NCBI RefSeq assembly: GCF_000512735.1
Contig: NZ_CP007028.1
Location: forward strand, 1,054,001-1,118,000
DNA: 64,000 nucleotides
Source of the DNA: Thermocrinis ruber
Lineage (GTDB): Bacteria; Aquificota; Aquificia; Aquificales; Aquificaceae
Direction of reading: 5' to 3'
Positions 18,004 to 37,952 of the stretch are shown here, one piece after another. Position numbers and translations under genes: made by a program. Each line of letters begins with the position of its first letter. Position 1 is the stretch's first letter. The notes below the pieces were generated by a model. That model saw only the letters and a list, made by a program, of their open reading frames with translations. It had not been told where the DNA came from and made no database searches.

Positions 18004-18031
18004 TTAACACATAACATCCCTGGAGTATAAT
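18004..18031 (+). promoter_or_regulatory. Promoter of the pel operon
   Basis: TTAACA (18004-18009) and TATAAT (18026-18031) are 16 bp apart, a good sigma-70 promoter. The leader to the pelB ATG is about 45 nt. A second TATAAC at 18066-18071 lies close to the start codon. Confidence 0.6.
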
Positions 18032-18083: not shown

Positions 18084-20867
18084 ATGAATACTTATAAGCT
18101 TGCAGGAAAGATAGTGCAAGGTAAGTTAATTATTGTGCTTTCCCTTTTGCCATCAGCGATCCTTTTTGCCAAAGAAAAAAGCCCAAAAGATAAGCTTGTT
18201 GAACAAAGTTTTATAAACCAAAACCCAACTTACCAAAGAGGCACTTCATACAAAATAGAGGAAAAATACTACCAGCTTTTAGTTCAGAGCTTTTTGGGTG
18301 CCAACGACCTACAAAGCGCCCTAAGGGTGCTGGAGGATGCGGTCAGAAGATTTCCACAAAATCCCAAGTGGTGGGAGCTATATGGACAGGCGCTAATTTG
18401 GAACAACATGGGAGCCAAGGCGGGGGAAGTTTTTTACGAAGGTTATAAGAACACAAAAAATAAAGAACTTGCTCAAAAAGCCTTCGAAATCTCCCTAGCC
18501 TTTAACAGGATAGATATTGCCAAGGAGCTTATGGAGGTAGTTTCTGTTCCTCCCGATGTAAAGGTCTATATCTACGACCAATTGGGAGATGTTGAAGGGC
18601 TTTTAAAGTTTTTATACACGCTAAAAACCAAAGACATGCTTTTAATGAGAGCGGAAATACTCAGTGCGTTAGGAAGAAAAAAAGAGGCAGAAGAAACTCT
18701 TTACGAGTATATAAAACTATACGGGAAGGATGAAAAAAGCGTGCTACTTTTGGCAAACATCTATTATTCGGACAGGAAGTTTGAACAAGCCTTAAAGGTT
18801 TTAAAGGACTTTTTGCCAAGTGCCAAAGAGGATAATGTGGAATTTTACAGGACCCTCAGCGACCTTGCCTGGATGCTCCAAGATTACGACGCCACAGCTT
18901 TGGCTTCCGAAAAGTTAATTAGCTTTTCCAAGGGTGAGGCGACGGATTACATCAGACTATCCGAAATATACTTTAGAAAGGGTTCAAAAAGGGCAGTTTC
19001 CCTCGCCCTGGAGGGCTACAAAAAGTTTGAGGACATGATACTTTTGAAAACTGCCCTTTACTATTCTTACGCTTTGGGATTATACGATCAAACCGTTGCC
19101 ATCTTTAAAGACCACAGAGACAAGCTACAAGATGACGTAAATACCGTGTTTCCCTATCTGCTTGCTCTACAACAGCTTGGTAAAAGGGAAGAAGCCCTTG
19201 AAGAGTTAGAAAAGATTTTGGCAAAGGCTAAAGCTCCCGAGCTTGTCTCCTTCTACATCTACTCCTTGGTGGAAGTCCAACGGGTGGAAAAGCTAAAAAG
19301 CGCCCTAAAGGAATACGAAGCATACACAAGGAATCCTTCGGTAGCCCAAGCCTATGCGGTAGCATACATATTTTTACAACAGGGTCAAACTGCCCTAAGA
19401 TATTACAAACTATCCGGTTCCAAGGACCCATTACTCTACGCAGACATTATTAACGTGATGGGTATGGAGGAGGAAGCCAAAGCTATAAAGCTAAAAGCAT
19501 ACAGAGAGCTAACAAGTGATGGATTACCTCTGGATGACCTTGAAAAATTGAGGATATACCTCTCCTTGGCTATGGAATTTGAAAATCCGGAGGTCTTTGA
19601 AAGAAAACTCCAGAGGGCGAAGGGGGTTCTTTCGGACGCAGTTTGGAAAGATATATATTTTGTTTATCTCTTTTCAAAGGAGCAAAGGGAGAGGGCAATT
19701 CTAAAGCAAAGGTTATACAAGTATCCACTAAAGCCTTGGATGTGGCTAAATTTGGCCCTCTGGCAGGACGATAGGTATTTGGTGCTACAACTCTTAGAAA
19801 GTAAGTTAGAAGCCCTTCCCATAAGGGACAGGGTGGAGGCCTTAAGGCGAGTAGGTCAGCCAAGGAGAGCCTTGGAGCTTGCCTTTAAGGGTCTGGAGGA
19901 AAACCCGTATGACTACCAACTTTACAAACAGTTCAGAGACTTGGCGGTGCAAGAATCAAACAAAGTAAGCTTGGAAGTATCCCACCAAAGGAGAGACGCT
20001 TACGGACAGTTTGTTGAAAGACTGGAGGTAGAAACTAAATTGGGAGACACCAATTACTCCGTTGGGTTTAGGTCTTCCACCTTTCAACCCACATATAAAG
20101 ATGATCAAGTCATAAGACAAAAGGTAGGGGGTTATCAAGCGGAGCTTTACTTACGTAGGCGGTTTGATAGGGGATACATTGGCTTTGGAATAGGACAATT
20201 GGAAAGGCTCAGGTCGGTGACGAATTTCCGTGTCTTTGGAGAGTCCTACCTATTTAGCGGGCTATCGGCGGGCTTTGAGGTCGGATACAGACAGCCCAGC
20301 ACAGAGAGCCTTTACCTTGAGCTTGGCGGTTTAAAAAACTACGCTAAGCTTAGCCTAACATTTACTCCTTACAGTAGGCTTAGCTTTTACTCCAGCTTAG
20401 AGTTAAGTGAGTTTTATTCACAGGATATAAAAAGGTTGGGAACGGGCTTTTATACGTACAATGAAGCCCAATATAAGCTAAGGTTTGGCTATCCTGACTA
20501 TACACTAAGGGCATTCTTTAGCTATGGCAATTACAGGGAAAAAGCAGGTAGCAAGGGAGTTATAGATCAGCTCTCTCCTTTTACCATTTTTAGGGTGCTA
20601 CCAGAGAACTACTTCTCCCTCGGGCTGGGATTTTCCTTTGGCTTTGAACACAAATACTCGTACACACGCTTTTGGAGACCTTTCTTTGATGCAAGCTTAG
20701 CATACAATTCCCTTGGCGGTTTGGGTATATCCACAGAAGTAGGTATAGGTGGTGCGGTTTTTGGAAACGACAATTTATCCTTTGGACTATCCTTCAGTAA
20801 GAATACGGGTGGTATAAAGGAAACTGTAATAGGTCCCTATCTTATCTACAGATACTACTTTAGGTAA
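18084..20867 (+). CDS. pelB: PelB-like outer-membrane exporter (TPR superhelix plus beta-barrel)
   Basis: The 927-residue protein has an N-terminal hydrophobic signal segment (IIVLSLLPSAILFA). About 550 residues of helical TPR-like repeats follow (for example LRVLEDAVRRFPQNPKWWEL and EQALKVLKDFLPSAKE). The C-terminal ~280 residues are rich in alternating aromatic and polar strands, ending YLIYRYYFR, as in an outer-membrane barrel. PelB exports the Pel polysaccharide, and its repeats bind the periplasmic modifying enzyme PelA. It is about 270 residues shorter than the Pseudomonas protein. It leads the operon. Confidence 0.88.
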   Translation: MNTYKLAGKIVQGKLIIVLSLLPSAILFAKEKSPKDKLVEQSFINQNPTYQRGTSYKIEEKYYQLLVQSFLGANDLQSALRVLEDAVRRFPQNPKWWELYGQALIWNNMGAKAGEVFYEGYKNTKNKELAQKAFEISLAFNRIDIAKELMEVVSVPPDVKVYIYDQLGDVEGLLKFLYTLKTKDMLLMRAEILSALGRKKEAEETLYEYIKLYGKDEKSVLLLANIYYSDRKFEQALKVLKDFLPSAKEDNVEFYRTLSDLAWMLQDYDATALASEKLISFSKGEATDYIRLSEIYFRKGSKRAVSLALEGYKKFEDMILLKTALYYSYALGLYDQTVAIFKDHRDKLQDDVNTVFPYLLALQQLGKREEALEELEKILAKAKAPELVSFYIYSLVEVQRVEKLKSALKEYEAYTRNPSVAQAYAVAYIFLQQGQTALRYYKLSGSKDPLLYADIINVMGMEEEAKAIKLKAYRELTSDGLPLDDLEKLRIYLSLAMEFENPEVFERKLQRAKGVLSDAVWKDIYFVYLFSKEQRERAILKQRLYKYPLKPWMWLNLALWQDDRYLVLQLLESKLEALPIRDRVEALRRVGQPRRALELAFKGLEENPYDYQLYKQFRDLAVQESNKVSLEVSHQRRDAYGQFVERLEVETKLGDTNYSVGFRSSTFQPTYKDDQVIRQKVGGYQAELYLRRRFDRGYIGFGIGQLERLRSVTNFRVFGESYLFSGLSAGFEVGYRQPSTESLYLELGGLKNYAKLSLTFTPYSRLSFYSSLELSEFYSQDIKRLGTGFYTYNEAQYKLRFGYPDYTLRAFFSYGNYREKAGSKGVIDQLSPFTIFRVLPENYFSLGLGFSFGFEHKYSYTRFWRPFFDASLAYNSLGGLGISTEVGIGGAVFGNDNLSFGLSFSKNTGGIKETVIGPYLIYRYYFR

Positions 20868-20917
20868 TGTTTAGTGGTAGAGTTATGTGTTATATTTTAT
20901 TAAAGGGAGTGGGTGGG

Positions 20918-20998
20918 ATGAAAAAAAGCTTTTATTTGTTTATGTGCACCTTTACCTGTTGCAGTCTAACGCAGACATTTCGCCATAGAAGGAGGTGA
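20918..20998 (+). CDS. Possible 26-residue leader peptide between pelB and pelC
   Basis: A small open frame starts at an ATG preceded by GGGAGTGGGTGGG. Its peptide has a basic, hydrophobic opening (MKKSFYLFMCTFTCC) and ends in HRRR. Its stop codon lies inside the AAGGAGGTG ribosome site of pelC, so translating it could affect pelC initiation. TATATT at 20890-20895 could be an internal promoter. Whether it is translated is unknown. Confidence 0.35.
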   Translation: MKKSFYLFMCTFTCCSLTQTFRHRRR

Positions 20999-21001
20999 AA
21001 A

Positions 21002-21487
21002 ATGGGAAGGGTATATTTTGCAGTCTTAGTTCTCTTCCTGATTGTAGGCTGTGCGAGGGTTGTGAACCAAACACCTACTCTCCCTATAAAGGGAGAATCT
21101 TATGTGGTACTACCCTTTGAAAACTACACAGAGACACCCTACGCAGGCTACAGAGTGGCATCCATTTTAGAGGGAGTGCTTGCAAGCAAGGGCTACAACC
21201 TGATCCCAAGAGTTTGGTCCATAAATGAAAGGGAACTTGCAGTAGAAGAGATTGAAAAGCTAAAGGAAAGTGCAGTAAAGAACGGAGCAAGATACATAGT
21301 GCATGGTTCTGTCAATGAGTTCAGATACAAAACTGGCTTGGATGGCGAACCAGCGGTAAGTATAACCATCTTTGTCTATGATGCAAAAGAAAACAAAGTT
21401 GTTAAAAACGTTACAGTATCCGGTAGTGGTTGGGTGCATGAGTCCTTGGGTACACTCACCCAAAAGCTTTTAAACCGGGCTTTCTGA
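21002..21487 (+). CDS. pelC: PelC outer-membrane lipoprotein
   Basis: The 161-residue protein has a lipoprotein signal with lipobox LIVGCAR, then the PelC core YVVLPFENYTETPYAGYRV, ILEGVLASKGYNL and ARYIVHGSVNEFRY. PelC forms a dodecameric periplasmic ring under PelB that guides the positively charged polymer to the exit channel. Length and position between pelB and pelD match the known system. It has a strong AAGGAGGTG site. Confidence 0.9.
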   Translation: MGRVYFAVLVLFLIVGCARVVNQTPTLPIKGESYVVLPFENYTETPYAGYRVASILEGVLASKGYNLIPRVWSINERELAVEEIEKLKESAVKNGARYIVHGSVNEFRYKTGLDGEPAVSITIFVYDAKENKVVKNVTVSGSGWVHESLGTLTQKLLNRAF

Positions 21488-22662
21488 TGCGTGCTTTTAG
21501 ACTTGGTGAAAGAATAACGATTGAAAAGGTAATATTCGTAGAAATTTTCCTATTAACCACTCTTTTGTTAGTTTTGGGTTGGTATTTCAACCGAGAAGAC
21601 CCACTCTTTATAAAAAGTAGATACGACTTAATAAACCTTTTAGTGGTTGCCCTTTCCCTTTACTACGGGTATTCTGGTGCTATTGTGCTAATATTTCTGC
21701 TTTCTGTGGGATACTTTTTCTTTTACCAGCCGTTTCCTTTAAACGATCTTCTGCAGAACCTCCTTTTTGCCCTTTTGTCTTCTGAGTTTAGATACATATG
21801 GGATAAAAAAATAAAGCTTGCACTTGCAGATAAAACCTATGCGGAACAGATGGCGGAACTTTATAGGAGGGAGCTCTTTAGCCTAAAGTTTGAATACGAC
21901 CTGCTGGAAAAACAGTTTGTGCTTTCTCCCTACAGCGTAAGGAATATTTTGGAAAGGTTTAAAGTTCCCTCTTCAAAGGCTTTCATGGAGCTGATATCGG
22001 ACTTCTTTGGCATTGTATCCGCAGAGCTTTACAAGTACGAAGATGGAAAGCTCATTTCTTTAGAAAAGTTGGGTGGCGGTGTGAAGGTAGATAAAGAAGA
22101 CCCTTTGATACAGGAAGCCTTGGAGCTGAACACATCCTTTTATATTCCACCTAAAGACATACTGAGAAAGGCTATTAGCAAAGAGGTTAACTTTATAGCC
22201 CTTGTGGTGGCAGAGTCTTACGCGGGCAAGTTTTTACTCGCAATAAAAGACATGGACTTCTTAAACATAAACGAGGAAGTGCTAACCTACATGACAATTC
22301 TTTTGGAATATTACGGAGACAGTATAGCCTTTGAGGCTTCAGGTTTTTACTGCACAAAGTTTTGCGATAGGGAGTTTGAACTGCAAGCTTACAGGATGCA
22401 ATCGCTAAAAGAACGCTTCGGAATAGACTCCTTTGTGGTTGTTTTTGAATATCCTCCCGAAAGAAGGGAAGAAGTGGTTAAGCTGAGAAGCATGGTTAAA
22501 GGTTTAGATAGAGTTTGCATAAATGAAAACAAAGTTTTTGTCCTTTTACCCATAACACCTAAGGAAGGAGTGGAAAGGTTCATAGAGAGGATAAGTAAAA
22601 ACATGGACTTTTTGAAGGTAAAAGAGATAAAACCTATTGGGGAGTTCTGCAATGTTGGGTGA
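21487..22662 (+). CDS. pelD: PelD, membrane regulator with GAF and degenerate GGDEF domains
   Basis: In the 391-residue protein four N-terminal membrane helices (about residues 15-105) precede a coiled segment, a GAF domain and a C-terminal degenerate GGDEF domain ending in the FVLLP strand. PelD normally binds cyclic di-GMP at an RxxD I-site and activates the PelF synthase post-translationally. Here the GGDEF site reads NENKV and no ungapped RxxD precedes it; the nearest is KGLD, one position off. Ligand binding may therefore differ. The protein is shorter than the Pseudomonas one and starts in a TGATG overlap with pelC. Confidence 0.85.
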   Translation: MRAFRLGERITIEKVIFVEIFLLTTLLLVLGWYFNREDPLFIKSRYDLINLLVVALSLYYGYSGAIVLIFLLSVGYFFFYQPFPLNDLLQNLLFALLSSEFRYIWDKKIKLALADKTYAEQMAELYRRELFSLKFEYDLLEKQFVLSPYSVRNILERFKVPSSKAFMELISDFFGIVSAELYKYEDGKLISLEKLGGGVKVDKEDPLIQEALELNTSFYIPPKDILRKAISKEVNFIALVVAESYAGKFLLAIKDMDFLNINEEVLTYMTILLEYYGDSIAFEASGFYCTKFCDREFELQAYRMQSLKERFGIDSFVVVFEYPPERREEVVKLRSMVKGLDRVCINENKVFVLLPITPKEGVERFIERISKNMDFLKVKEIKPIGEFCNVG

Positions 22663-23617
22663 ATATATAAGATCACTACTTGTGATATTGTTAGAAACAA
22701 CGGGATTGTATACACTGATGAAATATCCAACTGTATTTGGATTCATAACCTATCTCTTTTCTCACTTTATTGCGTCACTCTTGCTTGCCACAATGGTGGC
22801 GGGGATTTTAAAAATTTTTTATAAATACCCTTACAGACATGCTTTAATCCTTAGCTTTTCTATCTTTTTCTTCCTCGGACCTTTTGCAGTTCTGTTTGGT
22901 GTGATAGTTTTTATCTACACAAAAATTTCAAAGGCACCTCTTCCTATAAAGGAAGTCAATTACGAGTTAGTTTTCAGTGCTAGGATTCTTTCGGAGAAAA
23001 GAAGGCTGGGTGAAGGAAGCTTAAGGTTTGCAAAGGTGAAAGACCTAGAAAGGGTGGTATATTTCACCAAGTTCTACCACCCTCTGACGGTAAGATTTTT
23101 TAAGGAACTTCTCTTTTCTGATAACGACGAACTAAGACTGCTTGCCAACAGTTATCTAAAAAACGCTGAAAAATACCTTCAGGAGCTAATATACGAATTA
23201 GAGAGAATTCTGGAAAGCCAAGATCTAGGGAAAGATGTTAAATTTTTTGTGTGCAGGGCACTGGCATTTCTAAATTGGGATGTTTATTATCTAGGCTTTA
23301 TGGAAGAACAAATAGCAAAAAAGTACTTGGATAATGCTAAAGAGTACGTCATAAAAGCTCTAGAAATCAAAGAGGATCCTAGCCTTTATATGTTAATGGG
23401 AAGAATGGAGCTGATTTCAGGAGTTTATCGAAAAGCGTATGAACATTTCAAGAGGGCTTTGGATTTGGGTATGGAACCCGTCAAGGTATTACCTTACCTG
23501 TTGGAAGCTCTTTACAAGCTCCGTGATTTTAAAGAGTTAAAACAGGTTTCAGAAAAATACAGAGGAACTTACTCAGTTAATCCCAAAAGAATGGCTCTGA
23601 TCTCCGCATGGGTATGA
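22652..23617 (+). CDS. pelE: PelE, membrane protein with TPR-like domain
   Basis: The ATG at 22652 is chosen because GGGGAG lies seven bases upstream; an earlier TTG is possible. The 321-residue protein has two or three N-terminal membrane helices (about 25-95) and a C-terminal helical-repeat region (AKKYLDNAKEYVIKALEIKE, VYRKAYEHFKRALDLG). PelE scaffolds PelD, PelF and PelG in the inner-membrane synthase complex. Sequence is poorly conserved in this family, so the call rests on architecture and on its place between pelD and pelF. Confidence 0.85.
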   Translation: MLGEYIRSLLVILLETTGLYTLMKYPTVFGFITYLFSHFIASLLLATMVAGILKIFYKYPYRHALILSFSIFFFLGPFAVLFGVIVFIYTKISKAPLPIKEVNYELVFSARILSEKRRLGEGSLRFAKVKDLERVVYFTKFYHPLTVRFFKELLFSDNDELRLLANSYLKNAEKYLQELIYELERILESQDLGKDVKFFVCRALAFLNWDVYYLGFMEEQIAKKYLDNAKEYVIKALEIKEDPSLYMLMGRMELISGVYRKAYEHFKRALDLGMEPVKVLPYLLEALYKLRDFKELKQVSEKYRGTYSVNPKRMALISAWV

Positions 23618-25113
23618 AGCTTGTAGATAAACAAACCCATATAGATGTGCTCTTTATAGCGGAGGGAACCTATCCCTTTATAAAGGGCGGAGTATCTACT
23701 TGGATCCATCAGATAATCACTGGTATGAGGGACCTAAACTTTGGAGTGCTGTTCCTTGGCTCAAGACCCGAGGATTACAAAGGCATTGGCTACGAGCTTC
23801 CGGACAACTTGGTCTATCTTGAAGCTGTGTATTTGTTTTCGGAGGAGGAAAATGTTCAAACAGAAAAAGCCGAAAGGGAGAGCGAAAGGGTAAGACTTCT
23901 GAGGATATTTCTCGATGACAGAGCCTTTGAAGAGCATTGGCAGGAGGTTGTTAGCTTTTCTTACTTTAATGAAGTCTCTTACGAGGACTTTTTGTATAGC
24001 AAAAACTCTTGGGAGCTTATAGAGGAACTCTACGAAGAGTTGGAAATTGATGTACCCTTTGTGGATTACTTTTGGACTATGAGAAACCTTTTTGCACCTC
24101 TCTTCGTAGTAGCAAAACTTGGAATGACACTGGAAAAAAAAGAAATAGGCTTAATTCATAGTCCATCAACGGGTTATGCGGGCTTTTTGGGAAGTTTGAT
24201 GAGTAGAGAGTACAAAATACCTTTTATAGTTACTGAACATGGGATCTACACAAAGGAAAGAAAGATAGACATTCTAAACGCAAAGTGGATAGGAGTTCAA
24301 TACAGGTACCTATCCAAGAAATACGACATAGACACCCTCAGAAAGCTTTGGATAAAGATGTTCGTAAATCTTGGGAAAATTTCTTATTACACCGCTATGG
24401 AAGTTTTTTCTCTGTTTGAAGATGCAAGAAAACAGCAGATAGGCTGGGGCTGTCCGTCTGAAAAGACAAGGGTTATACCAAACGGCGTGGATGTGGATAG
24501 ACTTTCAAAGCTCTTAGAAAAAAGACCGAAGGAAATTCCGAAGGTGGTTTCCCTGATAGGAAGGGTTGTGGCCATAAAGGATATAAAAACCTTTATAAAG
24601 GCTATGAGTTTGCTGTGCCAACAGCTACCCGAGGCGGAGGGTTGGGTGGTAGGTCCCGAGGACGAGGAGCCCGAGTACACCCAAGAGTGCAAAGAGCTTG
24701 CAAAAATACTTGGAGTTGAAAATAGGGTAAAATTCCTAGGCTTTCAAAAGATAGATGATATTCTGCCCAAAACGGGGGTATTTACACTGACCTCCATAAG
24801 CGAGGGCATGCCCATGACGGTTTTGGAAGCTATGGCAAGCGGTGTACCCTGTGTTACCACCGACGTGGGTTCCTGCAGGCAACTTATCTACGGAGGGCTA
24901 AATCAAGAAGACGTAGAAATAGGTAAGGCGGGAGAAGTGGTTCCTGTGGGTGATGCAATAGGGCTTGCAAAAGCATACTACGAGCTTTTGACTAATGAAG
25001 AAATTTGGAAGAGCTGTCAAAGGGCTGGGCTTGAGAGGGTCCAAAGGTTTTACCGCTTTGACAAATTTATAGAAAACTACAGAAGTGTGTATAGAAAATA
25101 TTTAGGAAAATAG
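23608..25113 (+). CDS. pelF: PelF glycosyltransferase (GT4 family)
   Basis: PelF is the cytosolic synthase that polymerises UDP-linked N-acetylhexosamines into Pel. The 501-residue protein opens with the PelF signature IAEGTYPFIKGGVSTWIHQI. Its C-terminal GT-B half has PNGVDVDRLS, ISEGMPMTVLEAMASGVPCV with the EX7E-type acidic pair, and TTDVGSCRQLI. Length matches the family. The start at 23608 or the ATG six bases later (ATGA with the pelE stop) are both possible. Confidence 0.94.
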   Translation: MGMKLVDKQTHIDVLFIAEGTYPFIKGGVSTWIHQIITGMRDLNFGVLFLGSRPEDYKGIGYELPDNLVYLEAVYLFSEEENVQTEKAERESERVRLLRIFLDDRAFEEHWQEVVSFSYFNEVSYEDFLYSKNSWELIEELYEELEIDVPFVDYFWTMRNLFAPLFVVAKLGMTLEKKEIGLIHSPSTGYAGFLGSLMSREYKIPFIVTEHGIYTKERKIDILNAKWIGVQYRYLSKKYDIDTLRKLWIKMFVNLGKISYYTAMEVFSLFEDARKQQIGWGCPSEKTRVIPNGVDVDRLSKLLEKRPKEIPKVVSLIGRVVAIKDIKTFIKAMSLLCQQLPEAEGWVVGPEDEEPEYTQECKELAKILGVENRVKFLGFQKIDDILPKTGVFTLTSISEGMPMTVLEAMASGVPCVTTDVGSCRQLIYGGLNQEDVEIGKAGEVVPVGDAIGLAKAYYELLTNEEIWKSCQRAGLERVQRFYRFDKFIENYRSVYRKYLGK

Positions 25114-25115
25114 CC

Positions 25116-26489
25116 ATGGCGGGTATTTCTTTAGAGTTAAGAAGGCTTTACAGAGAGGGAAAGCTAGGAAGGGTCCTTTTGGCGGTGGGCTACTCTGCAG
25201 TTCTGGGAACAGGCAATTGGCTCTTTGCCATACTCAGCATCTTTGTATCCGCTTACATAGCGGAAAAGCTTTGGGGAGTGAGCGAAACCTTAATCAAATA
25301 CCAGGTATACATCACATACTGCGTTTCCATAAGCCTGATTCTTTCGGGCTTTTTCCAGCTTTCCTTTACAAGGTATATATCCGACAGGCTCTTTGAAAAG
25401 GAGTTTGAAAGGGTTCTTCCAAACACCCACGGGGTGGCAATACTGACCGCAATCTACAGCTTCTTTATAGCCCTTCTGCTGTCTTTTTTCTTCTTTAAAG
25501 GATATCCATACTATTATCATGTGCTATTCAGCTTTACCGTTGCTACCCTTTCCGTTATTTGGGTGGTGAACGCTTTACTCACCGGATTGAAGAGCTACAG
25601 GCACATATTCGCATCCTTTGTTATCTCGTACTCAATAGCAGCGCTTGCGGTAATTTCTCTATCAAATTTTGGATTAGTATGGCTTATGCTTAGCTTTTAT
25701 CTTAGTCAGACCTTACTGCTGTTTTTAATACTTTTCAGAGTTGCAAGGGACTATAGGTCTTCAAAACTTTTGGAGTTTGATTTTTTGAGAAAGGATAGGC
25801 TTTACAAAAGCTTGATGCTAACCGGATTTTTCGCTAACTTAGGTATTTGGATAGACAAATACGTGTTTTGGTACAGTCCAATGACGGGGACCCACGTGCT
25901 GGGGAACATGAAGGCGTCCGTCATTTACGATGTGCCCTTTACCCTGGCTCTTATTTCAATAGTACCCGGTTTTGCGGTGGCTTTTCTGAAGATTGAGCTG
26001 GAGTTTTTTGATAACTACGACGCGTACTACAAGGCGGTCAGAACTTGGGGAAGGTTGGATGACCTTTACAGGCTCGCAAACAAGATGATAGAAAGCGTCC
26101 GCTCAGCCTTTTTTGAAACTCTGAGATTTCAAGCCCTTACCGCCATACTACTTATCTTCATTCACGAGTATATATTTATATTTCTCAAACTGCCCACCGC
26201 CTACATTCCACTGTTTGAGATATTTCTCGTTGCCAAAGTATTCCTGATGGGATACATAGTTATTTATGCCCTTCTTTCTTACTTTGACCTAAGGAGGGAA
26301 CTGGTTAAAATGACTTTTACTTTTGCCTTGCTAAACTTTGTCTTTACACTCCTAACCCAATTTCTCGGGGCGTACTTTTACGGTTATGGCTATATGTTTG
26401 CCTTAATGTTTTCCATGATATTGGGTATGGAATACCTAAGGAGGTTCTTGAATGATGTTCATTATAGGACTTTTGCTCTTCGTGAGTAG
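25116..26489 (+). CDS. pelG: PelG inner-membrane transporter
   Basis: This 457-residue polytopic protein has about twelve hydrophobic helices and belongs to the MOP flippase group. It opens with the GNWLFAILSIFVSAYIAE stretch, and the RPxxxxxx-like loop GIWIDKYVFWYSPMTGT is typical of PelG. With PelD, PelE and PelF it forms the synthase that moves the growing polymer across the inner membrane. It follows pelF by 2 nt and overlaps pelA by 38 nt. Confidence 0.92.
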   Translation: MAGISLELRRLYREGKLGRVLLAVGYSAVLGTGNWLFAILSIFVSAYIAEKLWGVSETLIKYQVYITYCVSISLILSGFFQLSFTRYISDRLFEKEFERVLPNTHGVAILTAIYSFFIALLLSFFFFKGYPYYYHVLFSFTVATLSVIWVVNALLTGLKSYRHIFASFVISYSIAALAVISLSNFGLVWLMLSFYLSQTLLLFLILFRVARDYRSSKLLEFDFLRKDRLYKSLMLTGFFANLGIWIDKYVFWYSPMTGTHVLGNMKASVIYDVPFTLALISIVPGFAVAFLKIELEFFDNYDAYYKAVRTWGRLDDLYRLANKMIESVRSAFFETLRFQALTAILLIFIHEYIFIFLKLPTAYIPLFEIFLVAKVFLMGYIVIYALLSYFDLRRELVKMTFTFALLNFVFTLLTQFLGAYFYGYGYMFALMFSMILGMEYLRRFLNDVHYRTFALRE

Positions 26490-29148
26490 TTTGTTGGCGC
26501 AGGAACTAAAATGTGTGCTACTTTACTATCATCACAAACCTTTGCCCGATGATGTGCTCTATGCTTACGATTGGGTCGTGCTGGATGCGGACAACCCTTA
26601 TATGGAGGTTTTGAAGGAGAAGAGCTTTTATCAAAAAAAGAGGGCAAAACTCATAGGTTACATGAGCGTAGGAGAGATAGAAACCTACAGGGACTATTAC
26701 AAAGACCTTAAAAAGTATTCCATCGGAAGAAATCCCATGTGGAAGTCTTTGGTGGCAGATGTGAGGAACAAAGAGTACAGAAAGTTCCTTTTGGAGGTGG
26801 TGGCTAAAAGGATTGCGGACAGAGGCTTTGATGGGTTCCTTTTGGACACTTTAGATTCATACCAGCTTTCCGCCAGAAAGGAAGAGTGGAAAGACTTTCA
26901 GGACGCCCTTGTGGATTTTGTAAAGGAGCTAAGAAAAAGGTATTCCAACAAACTGATAGTTTTAAACAGAGGCTTTGAGTTTATAGATAGAGTTAAAGAA
27001 GACATAAATGGCGTTTTGGTGGAGAGTCTTTTTAGTGGGCTTGATGCAAAAAAAAGATACAGGGCAATTTCTGAGGAGGAAAAAAAATGGCTATTGGACC
27101 AGCTAAGCAGGATAAAGTCCTATGGCATTCCCGTGATAGTGGTGGATTACGCAGACCCGAGGGACAAAAAGAAGGCAAAGGAGCTTGTTGGAAAGATCGC
27201 GGAGCTTGGGTTTATTCCATACGTGGCAGACAGGGAGCTTTCAAGGGTCGGATACTCTCTCTGTTCTTTAATTCCAAGAAAGGTTGCCATTCTCTATAGT
27301 TCAAAGGAAAATCCGGTAGCCCAGTATGAACCCACTCACAGGCTCACATCTATGGTGCTTGAATACTTGGGTTTTGTGCCCGAGATGTTTGACATAGAAG
27401 AGGAGTTGCCCGAAATTTACCCAGAGCTCGGCTATGCGGGCGTAATGGTGGGTTTTTTAGGAAAGCTTGACGAAAAATTAACTGATTGGTTGATAAAGGC
27501 AAAGGAAGAGGGTTTAAAGCTGTTCTTTTTGAACTCGCTGCCCTACAATGAAAAATTTTATAGAGCCTTTGGTATAAGGGTAGAAAGGAACAGAGAGAGG
27601 TCTATAAACCCTTTTAGGCTGATAAGACCGAAGGAAAACGGGGGCTTTGAGGCGCCAATAAAGGTATCCTACACGGATACTCTGTTAATTGCAGAAAAAG
27701 GAACACCCATGGTTGAGGTGGAAAACTCCCTCGGACAAAAACACCATCCTTTTGCCCTCTTTGATTGGGGAGGATACGCAGTTAATGAATCCCTCTTGAA
27801 CTCAGAGGAACTGTGGAGCTTTGACCCTTTTGAGGTGTTCAAAAAGGTCTTTGGGACCACCCTTTTGATCCCTGACCTTACCACCCAAAACGGTGGAAGA
27901 ATACTTACCGCCCACATAGATGGAGATGCCTTCTTTGGAGACGCAGAATTTGACCCTTCCAAGACCCTGGGAGAGGTAATAAGGGAAGAAATAATAAAAA
28001 GGTATCCTATTCCGCATACCGTTTCCATAGTAGTGGGAGAGGTCTCCAAGGATGGACTGTATCCGGATAGGTCAGAGAGGTTAATAAACGTAACAAAGAG
28101 CATATTCTCAATTGAGTGGGTTGAACCCGCAAGCCACAGCTTTTCCCATCCCTATGACTGGCAACCCAAATACAGAAAAAGGGAGCTACCTTACGGCTAC
28201 AACCTTCCAATAAAAGGCTATAACCTCAACTGGGACAGTGAAATAAGAGGCTCGGTAGAATGGATCAACAGAGAGGTTTTGAAGGACCTTGGAAAAAAAG
28301 TTAGAGTTTTCCTCTGGACGGGCGAATGCAACCCAAACAGAGAACAGCTAAGACAAACCTACCAGCTTGGCCTTTTCAACGTCAATGGAGGACTGACCAC
28401 AATAACCCAGCAGGAGCCCTTCCTGAAGAACATAGGTCCCTCCGGTGTCAATTACGGACCCTACTTTCAGGTCTATGCTCCCGTGCAGAACGAAAACATA
28501 TACACAAACCTTTGGACGGGTCCCTTCTGGGGCTTTTTAAATGTTATACAGACCTTTGAGCTCACAGAAAACCCAAGAAGGTTAAAGCCTATTTCTATTT
28601 ATTATCACTTTTATTCAGGGCAAAAGTTGGCTTCTTTGAACGCTTTGAAAAGGGTTTACGAATGGGCTCTATCAAAGGAAGTAAGTCCCATGTTCTTGTC
28701 CGAGTATAGCAGGTGGGTTTTGGACTTCAGACAGACCGCCATAATGAGATGGGAAGAAGGCTTTAGAGTAAAAAACGCGGGCGGATTGAGGACCCTGAGG
28801 TACCCAAAGGAATGGGGCTATCCGGACGCAGAGAAGGGCAAGGGAGTGGTGGGCTACAGGGAAGGGAAGGATGGCTACAACTATCTCTTTCTGGATGGTT
28901 CGGGAGACTACTATTTGGTCTTTTCCTCCCAAAAGCCAAAGTTTGCACTTTTATACTCAAACGGCTATGTAGAAAGCTTTGAAAGAAAAGGAAAAGAGTA
29001 TAGGCTAAGGCTAAGCTCCTACCTACCTTTGGAGGTTCGTTTGGAAACCTCTTGCAAAGTGTTCATAAACGGAAAAGCCTACAACCCTGGGGTTGTTGAG
29101 TTCAAAGGAGGAAAACATGCGGACATCAAAGCGGTATGCACTGATTAA
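26452..29148 (+). CDS. pelA: PelA, periplasmic GH114 hydrolase / CE18 deacetylase
   Basis: After a signal peptide (about 1-16), the 898 residues contain an N-terminal GH114 alpha-1,4-galactosaminidase-like domain with catalytic candidates Asp in GFDGFLLDTLD and Glu in GVLVESLFSG. A middle Rossmann-like region follows. The polysaccharide deacetylase domain has its metal motif at LTAHIDGDAF and HSFSHPYDW. PelA deacetylates Pel to make it cationic and can cut it. In Pseudomonas pelA leads the operon; here it follows pelG. Confidence 0.92.
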   Translation: MMFIIGLLLFVSSLLAQELKCVLLYYHHKPLPDDVLYAYDWVVLDADNPYMEVLKEKSFYQKKRAKLIGYMSVGEIETYRDYYKDLKKYSIGRNPMWKSLVADVRNKEYRKFLLEVVAKRIADRGFDGFLLDTLDSYQLSARKEEWKDFQDALVDFVKELRKRYSNKLIVLNRGFEFIDRVKEDINGVLVESLFSGLDAKKRYRAISEEEKKWLLDQLSRIKSYGIPVIVVDYADPRDKKKAKELVGKIAELGFIPYVADRELSRVGYSLCSLIPRKVAILYSSKENPVAQYEPTHRLTSMVLEYLGFVPEMFDIEEELPEIYPELGYAGVMVGFLGKLDEKLTDWLIKAKEEGLKLFFLNSLPYNEKFYRAFGIRVERNRERSINPFRLIRPKENGGFEAPIKVSYTDTLLIAEKGTPMVEVENSLGQKHHPFALFDWGGYAVNESLLNSEELWSFDPFEVFKKVFGTTLLIPDLTTQNGGRILTAHIDGDAFFGDAEFDPSKTLGEVIREEIIKRYPIPHTVSIVVGEVSKDGLYPDRSERLINVTKSIFSIEWVEPASHSFSHPYDWQPKYRKRELPYGYNLPIKGYNLNWDSEIRGSVEWINREVLKDLGKKVRVFLWTGECNPNREQLRQTYQLGLFNVNGGLTTITQQEPFLKNIGPSGVNYGPYFQVYAPVQNENIYTNLWTGPFWGFLNVIQTFELTENPRRLKPISIYYHFYSGQKLASLNALKRVYEWALSKEVSPMFLSEYSRWVLDFRQTAIMRWEEGFRVKNAGGLRTLRYPKEWGYPDAEKGKGVVGYREGKDGYNYLFLDGSGDYYLVFSSQKPKFALLYSNGYVESFERKGKEYRLRLSSYLPLEVRLETSCKVFINGKAYNPGVVEFKGGKHADIKAVCTD

Positions 29149-30154
29149 AGCCTTTTCAATAGAGGATTACCTGGGAATAATTCTGACCGCACTGCTGGTG
29201 GCGATCCTTCTTTTTCCAAAAGGCAAGTTAGAAAGATATCTGCCCGAGTCTGTGGAGATAAACATAGACTTAGCTCTTGCCTACTACAGAGCCCTTTTGA
29301 GAACAAACCTTTCAGTGGATATATACGACGCCCTGGTCAAGTCCTACATTAGAGTAGGTAGGACTAAAGACGCTATAGAAGTAGTTTCAGAAATGGAAAG
29401 AAAATATCCCAATGACCCAGATATATTGTTTTTGAAGTATCAACTGCTAAAGGCAGAGTATTTCTCCGTCAAAGACGAAGGACAAAAGAAAAGGATAAAA
29501 AACGAGATAGAAAAGCTCTTGAGTCTTTACATAAAACTAAAAATGGACACAAGCTCTTTAGAAAAAGCCTTCAAGGAAGCGGAGAGTATGGACATTCCCG
29601 AGATTGCATACAGAACTTCCGCTGTATTGGCGGAAAGAACGGGAAACCTTTTTTGGATTGAGAAAGCCTTTTACTACTCAATAGCCTTCAAGGACTATGC
29701 CACGGCTTCAAGGTTTGCGGATGTGTTGGTGGAAAAGAAGGGTAAAGCTTTCGTAAAAGACGCCATCAACCTTGCACTGCTTTCGGGAAATCTACAAAAG
29801 GCTTTTGACTATGCAAGAGCCTACTATCAGGAACTTCCACCAGCAGAAAGGCAAAGTCTGATAAAAAGGCTCATAGAAGTAGGGCTTACCACAGAAAACT
29901 ATCTTCCCTTCAGGGAATACATGAAAAAAAGCTTTCCTTTGACACCCGAGGAAAGGCTATACTTGGAAAAGGAGGTTATGAAGCGCGCCCTTTGGGCAAA
30001 GGATTATGAGACTTTGAAAAGGCTGATCCTCGAAAACCTGCATTTGAGCAAAAGCCTTGAATACAGGACCTTCCTTTTGGAGCTTGCTTTGGGAACAGGA
30101 GACCCTTACTTTGCCCGAGATGTAGCCAAGAGGCTTCATTTTGGTGATAATTAA
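29117..30154 (+). CDS. Membrane-anchored helical-repeat (TPR-like) protein at the end of the pel operon
   Basis: The ATG at 29117 is preferred because AGGAGG sits just upstream; it overlaps pelA by 32 nt. The 345-residue protein has one N-terminal membrane helix (about 20-38: LGIILTALLVAILLF) followed entirely by TPR-like helix pairs (DALVKSYIRVGRTKDAIEVV, LALLSGNLQKAFDYARAYY). It is not one of the seven canonical Pel proteins. It could be a detached inner-membrane-anchored portion of PelB, since pelB here lacks about that much sequence, or a PelE-like scaffold. Confidence 0.8.
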   Translation: MRTSKRYALIKAFSIEDYLGIILTALLVAILLFPKGKLERYLPESVEINIDLALAYYRALLRTNLSVDIYDALVKSYIRVGRTKDAIEVVSEMERKYPNDPDILFLKYQLLKAEYFSVKDEGQKKRIKNEIEKLLSLYIKLKMDTSSLEKAFKEAESMDIPEIAYRTSAVLAERTGNLFWIEKAFYYSIAFKDYATASRFADVLVEKKGKAFVKDAINLALLSGNLQKAFDYARAYYQELPPAERQSLIKRLIEVGLTTENYLPFREYMKKSFPLTPEERLYLEKEVMKRALWAKDYETLKRLILENLHLSKSLEYRTFLLELALGTGDPYFARDVAKRLHFGDN

Positions 30155-30183: not shown

Positions 30184-31992
30184 ATGGAAAAAAGCTACAA
30201 TCCAAGGGATATAGAACAGAAGTGGCAAAGGCACTGGGAGGAGCTTGGAGTTTTTAAGGTGGAGGAGGGAGAGAATAAGGTCTATGTGCTTGAGATGTTT
30301 CCATACCCATCGGGGCGCATTCACATGGGTCATGTTAGAAATTACACCATTGGAGATGCTCTGGCGCGCTTTTTGAGGATGAAGGGAAAAAGAGTTTTGC
30401 ATCCTATGGGATGGGACGCCTTCGGTTTGCCCGCGGAAAACGCAGCGCTAAAACATGGAGTGCATCCCGCCCAATGGACCAAGGAAAACATAAATTACAT
30501 GAAACAGCAACTCAAAAGTATGGGCTTTTCCTACGATTGGGACAGGGAGATTGCTACCTGCGACCCAGAGTATTACAAGTGGAACCAGTGGATCTTTTTA
30601 AAGCTCTACGAAAAGGGCTTGGTTTATAGAAAGGATGCGGAGGTTAATTGGTGCCCTAACGATGAGACGGTCCTTGCAAACGAGCAGGTTATAGAGGGCA
30701 AGTGTTGGCGTTGTGGAACACCCGTGGTAAGGAGAAACGTGCCCTCCTGGTACATAAAGATCACCGATTATGCAGAGAGACTTTTGGAAGACTTAAAGCT
30801 CTTGGAAGGTAAGTGGCCCGAAAGGGTGATCCTCCAGCAAAGAAACTGGATAGGTAGGTCCGAAGGGGCGGTAATAAAGTTCTATGTGGACGAATTACCC
30901 ATAGAAGTCTTTACCACTAGACCGGACACGGTTTTTGGTGCCACCTTTTTGGTGCTAGCACCCGAGCATCCACTAACTTTGACCCTTGCCAAGAGGGGAG
31001 GTAGGCTGAAAGAAGTGGAAGAGTTTGTCAACAAAATGAAGCACATGTCCTCAAGGGAGAGGGGGACCCAAGAGGAAAAGGAGGGCGTATTTCTTGGAGT
31101 GTATGCGAAAAACCCTACCAACGGTGAGCTGATTCCCGTATGGACCGCCAACTATGTGCTCTATGAGTATGGCACTGGGGCGATCATGTGCGTGCCCGCC
31201 CACGACCAAAGGGACTACGAGTTTGCCCAAAAGTACAACCTTCCCATAAAGGTGGTAGTCAAACCCAAAGACTCAGACCCGCCAGAGGGCAAAACCTACA
31301 TAGATCCTGGCATCCTCATAAACTCCGGACCCTTTGACGGAATGGACTCAGAGAGGGCAAAAAGGGAAATAACCCAGTGGCTAAAGGAGAAAGGTTTGGC
31401 GGACTTCAAAATCACATACAGGCTGAGAGATTGGAACATATCCCGCCAAAGATACTGGGGTACACCCATTCCCATAATTTACTGTCCAAGCTGTGGTACT
31501 GTGCCAGTACCGGAGGATCAACTCCCTGTTTTACTGCCAGAAAAGGTGGAGATCACAGGACATGGAAATCCTTTAGAGAAGGTGGAGGATTGGGTAAATA
31601 CCACCTGTCCCAAGTGCGGAGGTCCCGCCAAAAGAGAAACGGACACCATGGACACCTTCTTTGATTCTTCTTGGTATTTCCTCCGCTACTGCGACCCAAA
31701 GAACGACAATCTACCCTTTGACCCCAAGAAGGTGGAAAGCTGGATGCCGGTGGATTACTACATAGGCGGTATAGAGCATGCGGTCTTGCACCTTCTGTAT
31801 GCCCGGTTCTTCCAAAAGTTTCTCTTTGACCTTGGGCTTGTGAAGGATCCAGAGCCCTTTGAAAGGCTCATCACCCAAGGTATGGTGCTAAAAAGGTGGG
31901 TGAGCATTGAAAAGTTTTTGGAGTATTTGGGACTGAGTTTGGAGGACTGTGTGGAGCTTTTGAGGGCTAAGATCTCTGAGCTTACTTCTTGA
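30184..31992 (+). CDS. leuS: Leucyl-tRNA synthetase, alpha subunit (split LeuRS)
   Basis: The 602 residues contain the class I catalytic start with the HIGH-type motif in [15 protein letters not shown], two zinc-knuckle pairs (CWRCGTP; CPSCGT/CPKCGG) and the CP1 editing domain with [12 protein letters not shown]. The protein ends shortly after [12 protein letters not shown], before the KMSKS loop and anticodon-binding domain. This is the same break as in the Aquifex alpha-beta enzyme, whose beta subunit supplies the rest. The beta gene is not in this window. It is intact, not a frameshifted gene, since no KMSKS sequence follows. Confidence 0.95.
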
Positions 31993-36015: not shown

Positions 36016-36720
36016 TTATTTTAGTTCTCTCAAGTCTATTTTGCCCTCGTAGATTGCCTTTCCAACCACCACTCCTTCCACCAAACCGTAAAGTTTTTTC
36101 AGATCCTCCAGGCTTGCCACCCCACCGCTGGCGAGGAGTGGTTTTTTTGAAACCCTTTTGAACTCCTCGTAGGGCTTTGGGTCCACACCCTCCAGGGTAC
36201 CATCCCTTTCCACCACCGTATAAAGATAGCCCCATATGGGCTTTTGGTCCCACACCTTAGCCAAATCCTGAGGTGTATAGGAACTCTCCTCCTTCCATCC
36301 GCCCACGGAAACCTTCCCTCCCTTGCTATCCACCGAGAGTATCAACCTGCCGGGAAAGGCTGTTAGCATCTCTTCAAAAAGCTGGGGGTTCTTGAGGGCT
36401 ACCGTGCCAACTACAAAAAGGTTTATACCTTCTTCGTCAAGGATTTTCAGGGTTTCCATAGACCTTATTCCACCACCCACCTGAATGGTTCCAGAAAAAA
36501 CTTTTCTTATGTTCCTTATTGCCTGTAGGTTCCTTGGCACACCCCCAAGGGCACCGTCCAAATCCACAACGTGGAGCCGAGAAAAACCGAGCTCTTCAAA
36601 AAACCTTGCCACCTCCTCTGGCTTTTCTGAATAGACCTTTGCATGGTCCTCTTGTCCTCTGTATAGCCTTACCAAGCGCCCTTCCTTTAGGTCAATGGCT
36701 GGGATCAAAAAGTCCTTCAA
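36016..36720 (-). CDS. hisA: HisA phosphoribosylformimino-AICAR-P isomerase
   Basis: This TIM-barrel enzyme catalyses the fourth step of histidine synthesis. The 234 residues have the catalytic Asp in PAIDLKEGRLVRL and the phosphate-binding repeats VGGGIRS and ASGGVASLEDL that define the HisA/HisF fold. LVRLYRG and the central YTVVERDGTLEG motif favour HisA. It overlaps the GGDEF-EAL gene by 4 nt, an odd operon partner. Confidence 0.94.
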   Translation of the reverse strand: MKDFLIPAIDLKEGRLVRLYRGQEDHAKVYSEKPEEVARFFEELGFSRLHVVDLDGALGGVPRNLQAIRNIRKVFSGTIQVGGGIRSMETLKILDEEGINLFVVGTVALKNPQLFEEMLTAFPGRLILSVDSKGGKVSVGGWKEESSYTPQDLAKVWDQKPIWGYLYTVVERDGTLEGVDPKPYEEFKRVSKKPLLASGGVASLEDLKKLYGLVEGVVVGKAIYEGKIDLRELK

Positions 36721-37952
36721 GCCAACACCTCGGGTTTGCCTATGTAAAAGCCCTGAGCATAATCCGCTCCAAGTTTTTTGGCAAGCTCAAGGTCTTCTGC
36801 TTTTTCCACATGCTCCATAGCCACCACGTAACCCAATCTCTTTAAACCCTTTACTATCCACCTAAGCATGTTTCTCTCCTCCTTTAAAAAGAACCCATCT
36901 ATTTTTACAATATCGGGCTTTGTTTTTAACAACCTTTCAACGGATGAATTCTCAACGCCAAAATCATCCACCGCCACCTTGAAACCCAAAGCCCTTATGT
37001 TACTGACCACCTCTACTAATTCCTCAGTGGTAGCTGTGATTTTACTCTCGGGAATCTCTATCACCACATCCTCTGCAGGAATGCCAGCTTTTGTAAGCTC
37101 TTTTTTAAAGTCCTCAAGCTTTGCCTTACCCTTTGCCAAGTAATGGACAAAATAAGAAGGCATGTTAAAGAATAGCTTCTCACTAACCTTCCCTGCAAAC
37201 CAAGCATTTATAGCTTTATCAAAGATTATTTCTTCAAAAACCGTTAAGAGGGAAAGTTCGTAAATCTTGTCTATAAAAGCCATAGCAGGAATGTAACCAC
37301 CTTGATCTTCTATACGCATTAAAACCTCGTAACCTTCTATAGAATCCTTCTTAAGGTTAAGAATTGGTTGAAAGGCAGGCACCACCCTATCTTCCTCAAT
37401 GGCAGAGATGAGATCCCATACAGTTATTTCCTTTGTCTTTTGTGTTCTAAAGCTTTCAAATGTTATTATCGGCTTATTTTTACCCTTTGCCTTTGCAGTT
37501 TGTTCCTCCAAAAAGTTTAAAAGTTCTTCCGGCAATTCTCCATCCTCTGGATAGCTACATAAAGTAATGGTTGCACTTACAGAACACCCCTCCACTTGTA
37601 TATCCGCAAGCCTTTTTGCAAGCCTCTCCGAAACTACCTTTGCTCCCTCCTTGTCCGTTTCCAGAAGTATTATGAGAAAACTCCCACTTTTATACTTCCC
37701 TGCTATATCACTCTTTCTTATGCTGTTGCCTATTGTATCCGCCACAAGCAAAAGCACCCTATTACCCACAAAGTAGCCCTTTTCTCTGTTTATCTGCCGT
37801 AGATTGTCAATATCAACGAGTATAAGGGAAAACTCTCTACCTTTTCTTTCGTGAAAGTAGAAGACTTTTTTTAAGATATCTTTCAGACACTGGGTATTTG
37901 GAATAAAGGTCTCTTTGTATAAGTCAAGCAATGTCAAATATTTACGGGTCAT
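36717..37952 (-). CDS. Degenerate GGDEF plus EAL domain protein (likely c-di-GMP phosphodiesterase)
   Basis: The 411-residue cytoplasmic protein has an N-terminal GGDEF-fold domain whose active site reads KSGSF, so it should not synthesise c-di-GMP. An inhibitory-site RxxD (RKSD) is kept at the correct five-residue spacing, so it may bind nucleotide. The EAL domain keeps the hydrolytic residues: EVL, the N in NMPSYF, Glu in EIPES, VDDFG, the Lys in KID, ExVE and QGFYIGKP. It probably degrades c-di-GMP, the activator of Pel secretion. The mRNA looks leaderless. Confidence 0.9.
   Translation of the reverse strand: MTRKYLTLLDLYKETFIPNTQCLKDILKKVFYFHERKGREFSLILVDIDNLRQINREKGYFVGNRVLLLVADTIGNSIRKSDIAGKYKSGSFLIILLETDKEGAKVVSERLAKRLADIQVEGCSVSATITLCSYPEDGELPEELLNFLEEQTAKAKGKNKPIITFESFRTQKTKEITVWDLISAIEEDRVVPAFQPILNLKKDSIEGYEVLMRIEDQGGYIPAMAFIDKIYELSLLTVFEEIIFDKAINAWFAGKVSEKLFFNMPSYFVHYLAKGKAKLEDFKKELTKAGIPAEDVVIEIPESKITATTEELVEVVSNIRALGFKVAVDDFGVENSSVERLLKTKPDIVKIDGFFLKEERNMLRWIVKGLKRLGYVVAMEHVEKAEDLELAKKLGADYAQGFYIGKPEVLA

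Follow-up and report, generated by a model that had tools for sequence, protein, structure and literature searches.

The canonical operon for the biofilm polysaccharide Pel, pelABCDEFG, is known from Pseudomonas aeruginosa and from plasmids of Caballeronia, Pseudoalteromonas and Azonexus. The Thermocrinis locus described here resembles it in its seven protein families, in the catalytic residues of PelA and in being a single cluster on one strand. Where the canonical operon encodes one long PelB, Thermocrinis has two pelB genes, here called pelBN and pelBC for the amino- and carboxy-terminal parts of the protein. The gene order is A-B-C-D-E-F-G in three annotated proteobacterial loci but BC-C-D-E-F-G-A-BN in Thermocrinis, and the I-site of PelD reads RxxD in the canonical operon but KxxD in Thermocrinis. 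The order A-B-C-D-E-F-G, which is typical of a Gram-negative Pel operon without being strictly required of one, is not the order found in the window, that is, in the whole stretch of 64,000 nucleotides that was analysed. The Gram-positive pelDEADAFG operons are not known to have the outer-membrane export proteins PelB and PelC, both of which are encoded in Thermocrinis. The likeness to pelDEADAFG, as described for Bacillus cereus (PMC7112168, PMC13254593), lies in PelD, PelE, PelF, PelG and the deacetylase modules.

Other Aquificota pel operons contain the same eight genes and the same split pelB. In these, pelBC lies behind pelBN at the operon end and PelD carries RxxD, whereas in Thermocrinis pelBC comes first and PelD carries KxxD. 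Rearranged pel operons with pelB fission and locus gain have been reported from "aquatic thermophilic species" (Bundalovic-Torma et al. 2020, PMC7112194, Fig 5(iii)); as presented in that part of the article, they share with Thermocrinis the pelB fission and the rearrangement. The BC-first order may already be among those operons, for which the same part of the text names no species. The Thermocrinis operon is a variant of a known system, and the additions made here are the gene order across the phylum, the place at which PelB is split, and the position of pelBC and the PelD lysine that are found in Thermocrinis only.

The eight genes occupy positions 18084-30154 of the window on the + strand (Table 1), with gaps that are small or absent except behind the first gene. 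They are best read as a complete Pel operon, pelBC-C-D-E-F-G-A-pelBN, in which PelB is made as two proteins and pelBC has moved to the front in the Thermocrinis lineage (probability about 0.85). PelA to PelG are each matched by sequence or profile and are single-copy in the closed 1.52-Mb Thermocrinis genome. A sequence-only reading had described a complete seven-gene operon in the order B-C-D-E-F-G-A. Pfam/NCBIfam, structure and profile matches bear out all seven families, head to tail in that order at 18084-29148; what that reading overlooked is an eighth gene, pelBN, within the same interval. It had also placed the DNA in an Aquificales-type thermophile, which agrees with Thermocrinis, since the PelF query returned matches of 94-95% to Thermocrinis metagenome-assembled genomes (MAGs). 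A single-protein query of genome contigs found no matches beyond further MAGs of Thermocrinis and a distant glycosyltransferase from Lentisphaeria.

Table 1. Features of the pel operon (positions within the window).
Feature	Position	Strand	Evidence
Promoter-like site TTAACA-16-TATAAT, upstream of first gene	18004..18031	+	11/12 consensus matches
pelBC (pelB-C): signal peptide, TPRs, C-terminal outer-membrane beta-barrel	18084..20867	+	PF24604 1.7e-48
Spacer pelBC/pelC, 134 bp	20868..21001	+	
pelC: outer-membrane lipoprotein	21002..21487	+	PDB 9h80 PelC 4e-20; hhalign prob 100
pelD: TM + GAF + degenerate GGDEF, predicted c-di-GMP receptor	21487..22662	+	PelD-structure profile 5.6e-21
pelE: membrane + TPR protein	22652..23617	+	hhalign to canonical PelE prob 100, 4.7e-43
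pelF: GT4 synthase	23608..25113	+	NF038011 1e-173, 579 bits
pelG: inner-membrane transporter	25116..26489	+	PF16933 2.2e-111
pelA: GH + CE21 deacetylase	26452..29148	+	PDB 9cgy 3.7e-136; motif alignment
pelBN (pelB-N, 'H'): N-terminal TM helix, LFPKGKLE motif, TPRs	29117..30154	+	PelB profile match

The family assignments were examined in a profile-profile matrix in which Aquificota family profiles were compared with profiles of annotated proteobacterial PelA-G. Each of PelA-G matched its own counterpart with a probability of 100 and all others with 20 or less. PelF exceeds the cut-off of 100 bits of its NF038011 equivalog model several-fold, and PelG scores 373 bits against a Pfam cut-off of 29. 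PelD falls under the cut-off of PF16963 (6.5e-5); its match to PelD structures was obtained with a profile built from 21 Aquificota sequences, and an AlphaFold model of PelD calculated without an alignment was poor (pLDDT = 48.8) and was left out of the analysis. PelE has neither a Pfam family of its own nor any other family model. In addition to a GH114 domain detected by Pfam/NCBIfam (4.2e-21), PelA matches PDB entry 9cgy over its full length.

The PelA residues compared are those shown to be important in P. aeruginosa and P. thermotolerans. The motifs DTLD, ESL, HIDGD, SHSFSHP, NEN and YYH are all kept in the alignment, so that the D/E of the glycoside hydrolase and the H/D/D, H/H, E and H of the deacetylase are present, and the earlier statement that both catalytic sites are intact holds. 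The reading frame of pelE opens at a TTG at 22637 with an ATG at 22652, and that of pelBN opens at a TTG at 29093. The promoter-like site is the top-scoring one in the region; such sites are not enriched overall, with 21 found against 19.1 expected. Searches for Rfam elements at the operon, for flanking repeats or tandem arrays as a sign of a mobile element, and for PelG relatives in viral contigs found none. In one Thermocrinis MAG (locus L080, 6485-8041), PelD reads as 519 aa instead of the usual ~390.

PelB may be considered in terms of a transmembrane segment, TPRs and a porin. All of these parts are present in the window, distributed over two genes instead of one. In hhalign comparisons with full-length PelB, the pelBN profile covers residues 9-283 (prob 98.8) and pelBC covers residues 333-1267 (prob 100). 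The corresponding family profiles match P. aeruginosa PelB at residues 54-247 (1e-17) and 284-743 (5.4e-51), the barrel being matched besides by PF24604, and the assignment of the two genes to the two ends of PelB was reproduced with other alignments. The protein encoded by pelBC is without the amino terminal membrane anchor part, and the transmembrane and FPK start of PelBN aligns with the start of PelB. By alignment, the two genes thus encode collinear, non-overlapping parts of one PelB. Since TPR regions match one another easily, the assignment of pelBN rests on its transmembrane/LFPKGKLE start, on collinearity, on a match that is exclusive to PelB among the Pel proteins, and on adjacency of the two genes in relatives.

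The promiscuity of TPR proteins also raises the question of whether the Aquificota operon might have acquired the gene of an unrelated TPR protein as its eighth member, the front gene then being a naturally shorter PelB. In keeping with this, the top PDB match of the pelBN profile is a consensus TPR, and the relevant part of PMC7112194 mentions "locus gain" alongside fission in aquatic thermophiles. The best match of pelBN to a natural protein is nevertheless PelB itself, no other Pel protein is matched beyond a probability of ~30, the start of the gene aligns with that of PelB, and relatives have pelBN between pelA and the remainder of pelB, usually with a 4-bp overlap, which is the place expected for the amino terminal part of pelB. 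Gain of an unrelated gene is consequently held to be quite unlikely. A two-gene PelB may reflect a split of pelB in the Aquificota or a fusion elsewhere. A naturally split PelB shows where the protein tolerates a cut and which TPRs must remain with the porin, which is of help when heat-stable proteins are to be assembled into PelA-PelB and PelB-PelC complexes.

The gene-cluster comparison across Aquificota that the sequence-only reading had suggested was carried out. The pelG gene is present in 49 of 136 Aquificota genomes and in 20 of 30 genera. Up to 20 kb was taken around 48 pelG matches and annotated with iterated profiles, yielding ~43 loci outside Thermocrinis; outside the phylum, the comparison was made through plasmid-borne pel loci only. 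The order C-D-E-F-G-A-BN-BC is found in 24 complete non-Thermocrinis loci, and pelBC lies directly behind pelBN in all 32 non-Thermocrinis loci bearing on this point, mostly with a 4-bp overlap. Those long enough to judge have the order (C-D-)E-F-G-A-BN-BC, with the exception of a few genomes of one Aquificaceae genus (loci L068, L069 and L060), where pelC/pelD or pelF is inverted nearby or elsewhere; these inversions imply that break-up of the pel operon is under way in at least two lineages. Compared with the proteobacterial order, the A-B block as a whole is found behind pelG throughout the Aquificota.

Among the Aquificota loci compared, pelBC stands at the operon front in Thermocrinis only. 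Three of the five Thermocrinis loci, including the window, have both the front and the end visible and read BC-C-D-E-F-G-A-BN followed by leuS; the remaining two are incomplete because of contig ends or a gap but agree with the BC-first order. Trees of F+G+A, BC and BN, which were quick calculations with three or four proteobacterial loci as the outgroup, each place Thermocrinis as one clade inside the Aquificota, near other Aquificaceae genera. From this nesting it follows that the BC-first order is derived and that pelBC is native. As read from gene order and these trees, pelBC went from the operon end to the front in the Thermocrinis lineage. The earlier proposal that pelA had moved to the end of a canonical seven-gene operon is correct as to how the seven genes it names are arranged in comparison with Pseudomonas. 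As an account of the rearrangement, it is very improbable, because the eighth gene belongs to pelB and because the position of pelA is constant across the phylum whereas that of pelBC is the one that varies in Thermocrinis.

The route by which pelBC reached the front may be considered further. Since the orders ABCDEFG, CDEFGA-BN-BC and BC-CDEFGA-BN are all rotations of one circle, the Thermocrinis order could have arisen by rotation of the cluster, either through a tandem duplication with loss of the outer copies or through a circular intermediate that was opened between the pelB halves and re-inserted. The non-coding spacer at the BC/C junction, 134 bp in the window and 55-176 bp in other Thermocrinis, would fit such an event and is possibly a scar of rearrangement. 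Moving one gene from the end to the front is, however, also a one-step rotation, so the order alone cannot discriminate; the spacer is single-copy in the genome, and a search for duplicated fragments found none. Cluster rotation is possible but on the unlikely side, and relocation of pelBC as a single gene is preferred. Within the spacer there is a small, remnant-like reading frame (MKKSFYLFM..., 20918-20998) that is also present in a second Thermocrinis genome; in two further ones it has been lost by shortening.

A search for a clean empty site found none. Genome G052 shows synteny over leuS-iscU and the gene that follows but has a different gene upstream of leuS; an SDH-type protease lies ~15 kb away in another arrangement. 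In the window, the product of leuS (30184-31992, + strand) is a partial leucyl-tRNA synthetase of 602 aa, similar to the two-subunit enzyme of Aquifex. Within genus g2 (G001, G002 and G005), even this part of leuS gives two adjacent matches.

The window encodes PelF, PelG, PelC and the PelB porin, and the CE21 and GH residues are kept. From homology of the synthase, transporter, deacetylase and export proteins, the best prediction is therefore a GalNAc polymer of the Pel type that is partly de-N-acetylated and exported, much like the cationic aminosugar polymer proposed earlier. PelF would build an alpha-1,4-GalNAc chain from UDP-GalNAc, for which a GalE that scores above its curated cut-off is a possible source. 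PelD, PelE and PelG would form an inner-membrane complex that delivers the chain to the periplasm under the control of PelD, and PelA would deacetylate and trim it before it exits via the PelB barrel seated in a ring of PelC. PelBN would provide the inner-membrane anchor and the first TPRs, and PelBC the later TPRs and the porin, by position probably including the TPRs that bind PelA. The Aquificota-wide order amounts to the canonical A-B block placed behind pelG with pelB in two parts; the transfer of pelBC from the end to the front in Thermocrinis came later.

The regulation of this putative system may have changed as well. In P. aeruginosa PelD, R367, D370 and R402 are required for c-di-GMP binding, and R367A abolishes it. 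The I-site is KGLD in all five Thermocrinis PelD proteins and RxxD in all 32 from other Aquificota; the equivalents of D370 and R402 are kept in Thermocrinis and that of R367 is a lysine. This substitution may alter c-di-GMP control and provides a natural variant for probing the requirements of RxxD. That c-di-GMP signalling exists in the host follows from its genome, which encodes GGDEF and EAL proteins (seven GGDEF matches, six with an intact GGDEF/GGEEF, and five EAL matches). A candidate c-di-GMP phosphodiesterase or receptor is the GGDEF-EAL protein encoded ~6.5 kb beyond the operon end (36717-37952, - strand), whose GGDEF half is degenerate and whose EAL half looks complete.

Tentatively, a two-part exporter encoded at opposite ends of the operon, together with a PelD that has drifted at its c-di-GMP site, could mean a different kind of control over Pel output at high temperature; this joint interpretation is rather doubtful, as is the form such control might take within it, namely a weaker dependence on c-di-GMP or another ligand. 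The lysine in all five proteins could also belong to an operon that is decaying or unregulated in Thermocrinis, and two nearly complete genomes of the genus are without pelG. Against decay, the five Thermocrinis genomes have open, conserved reading frames as far as the contigs extend, one pelA being interrupted by an assembly gap only, and the catalytic residues are kept along with the aspartate and the second arginine of the c-di-GMP site. Decay is regarded as improbable, and a maintained operon is the preferred reading.

The sequence-only reading had further suggested that a Pel polymer could underlie the growth of streamers. T. albus was obtained from whitish streamers and is filamentous under flow (PMC3035279), and a closed genome of the same genus that matches T. 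albus in length (1,500,577 bp) has neither pelG nor the PelB barrel. Pel is thus not generally required for streamers in Thermocrinis, which weakens the suggestion as a general rule and implies that dependence on Pel is not a general property of hot-spring streamers. In those Thermocrinis species that are pel-positive, a role for Pel in streamers is possible.
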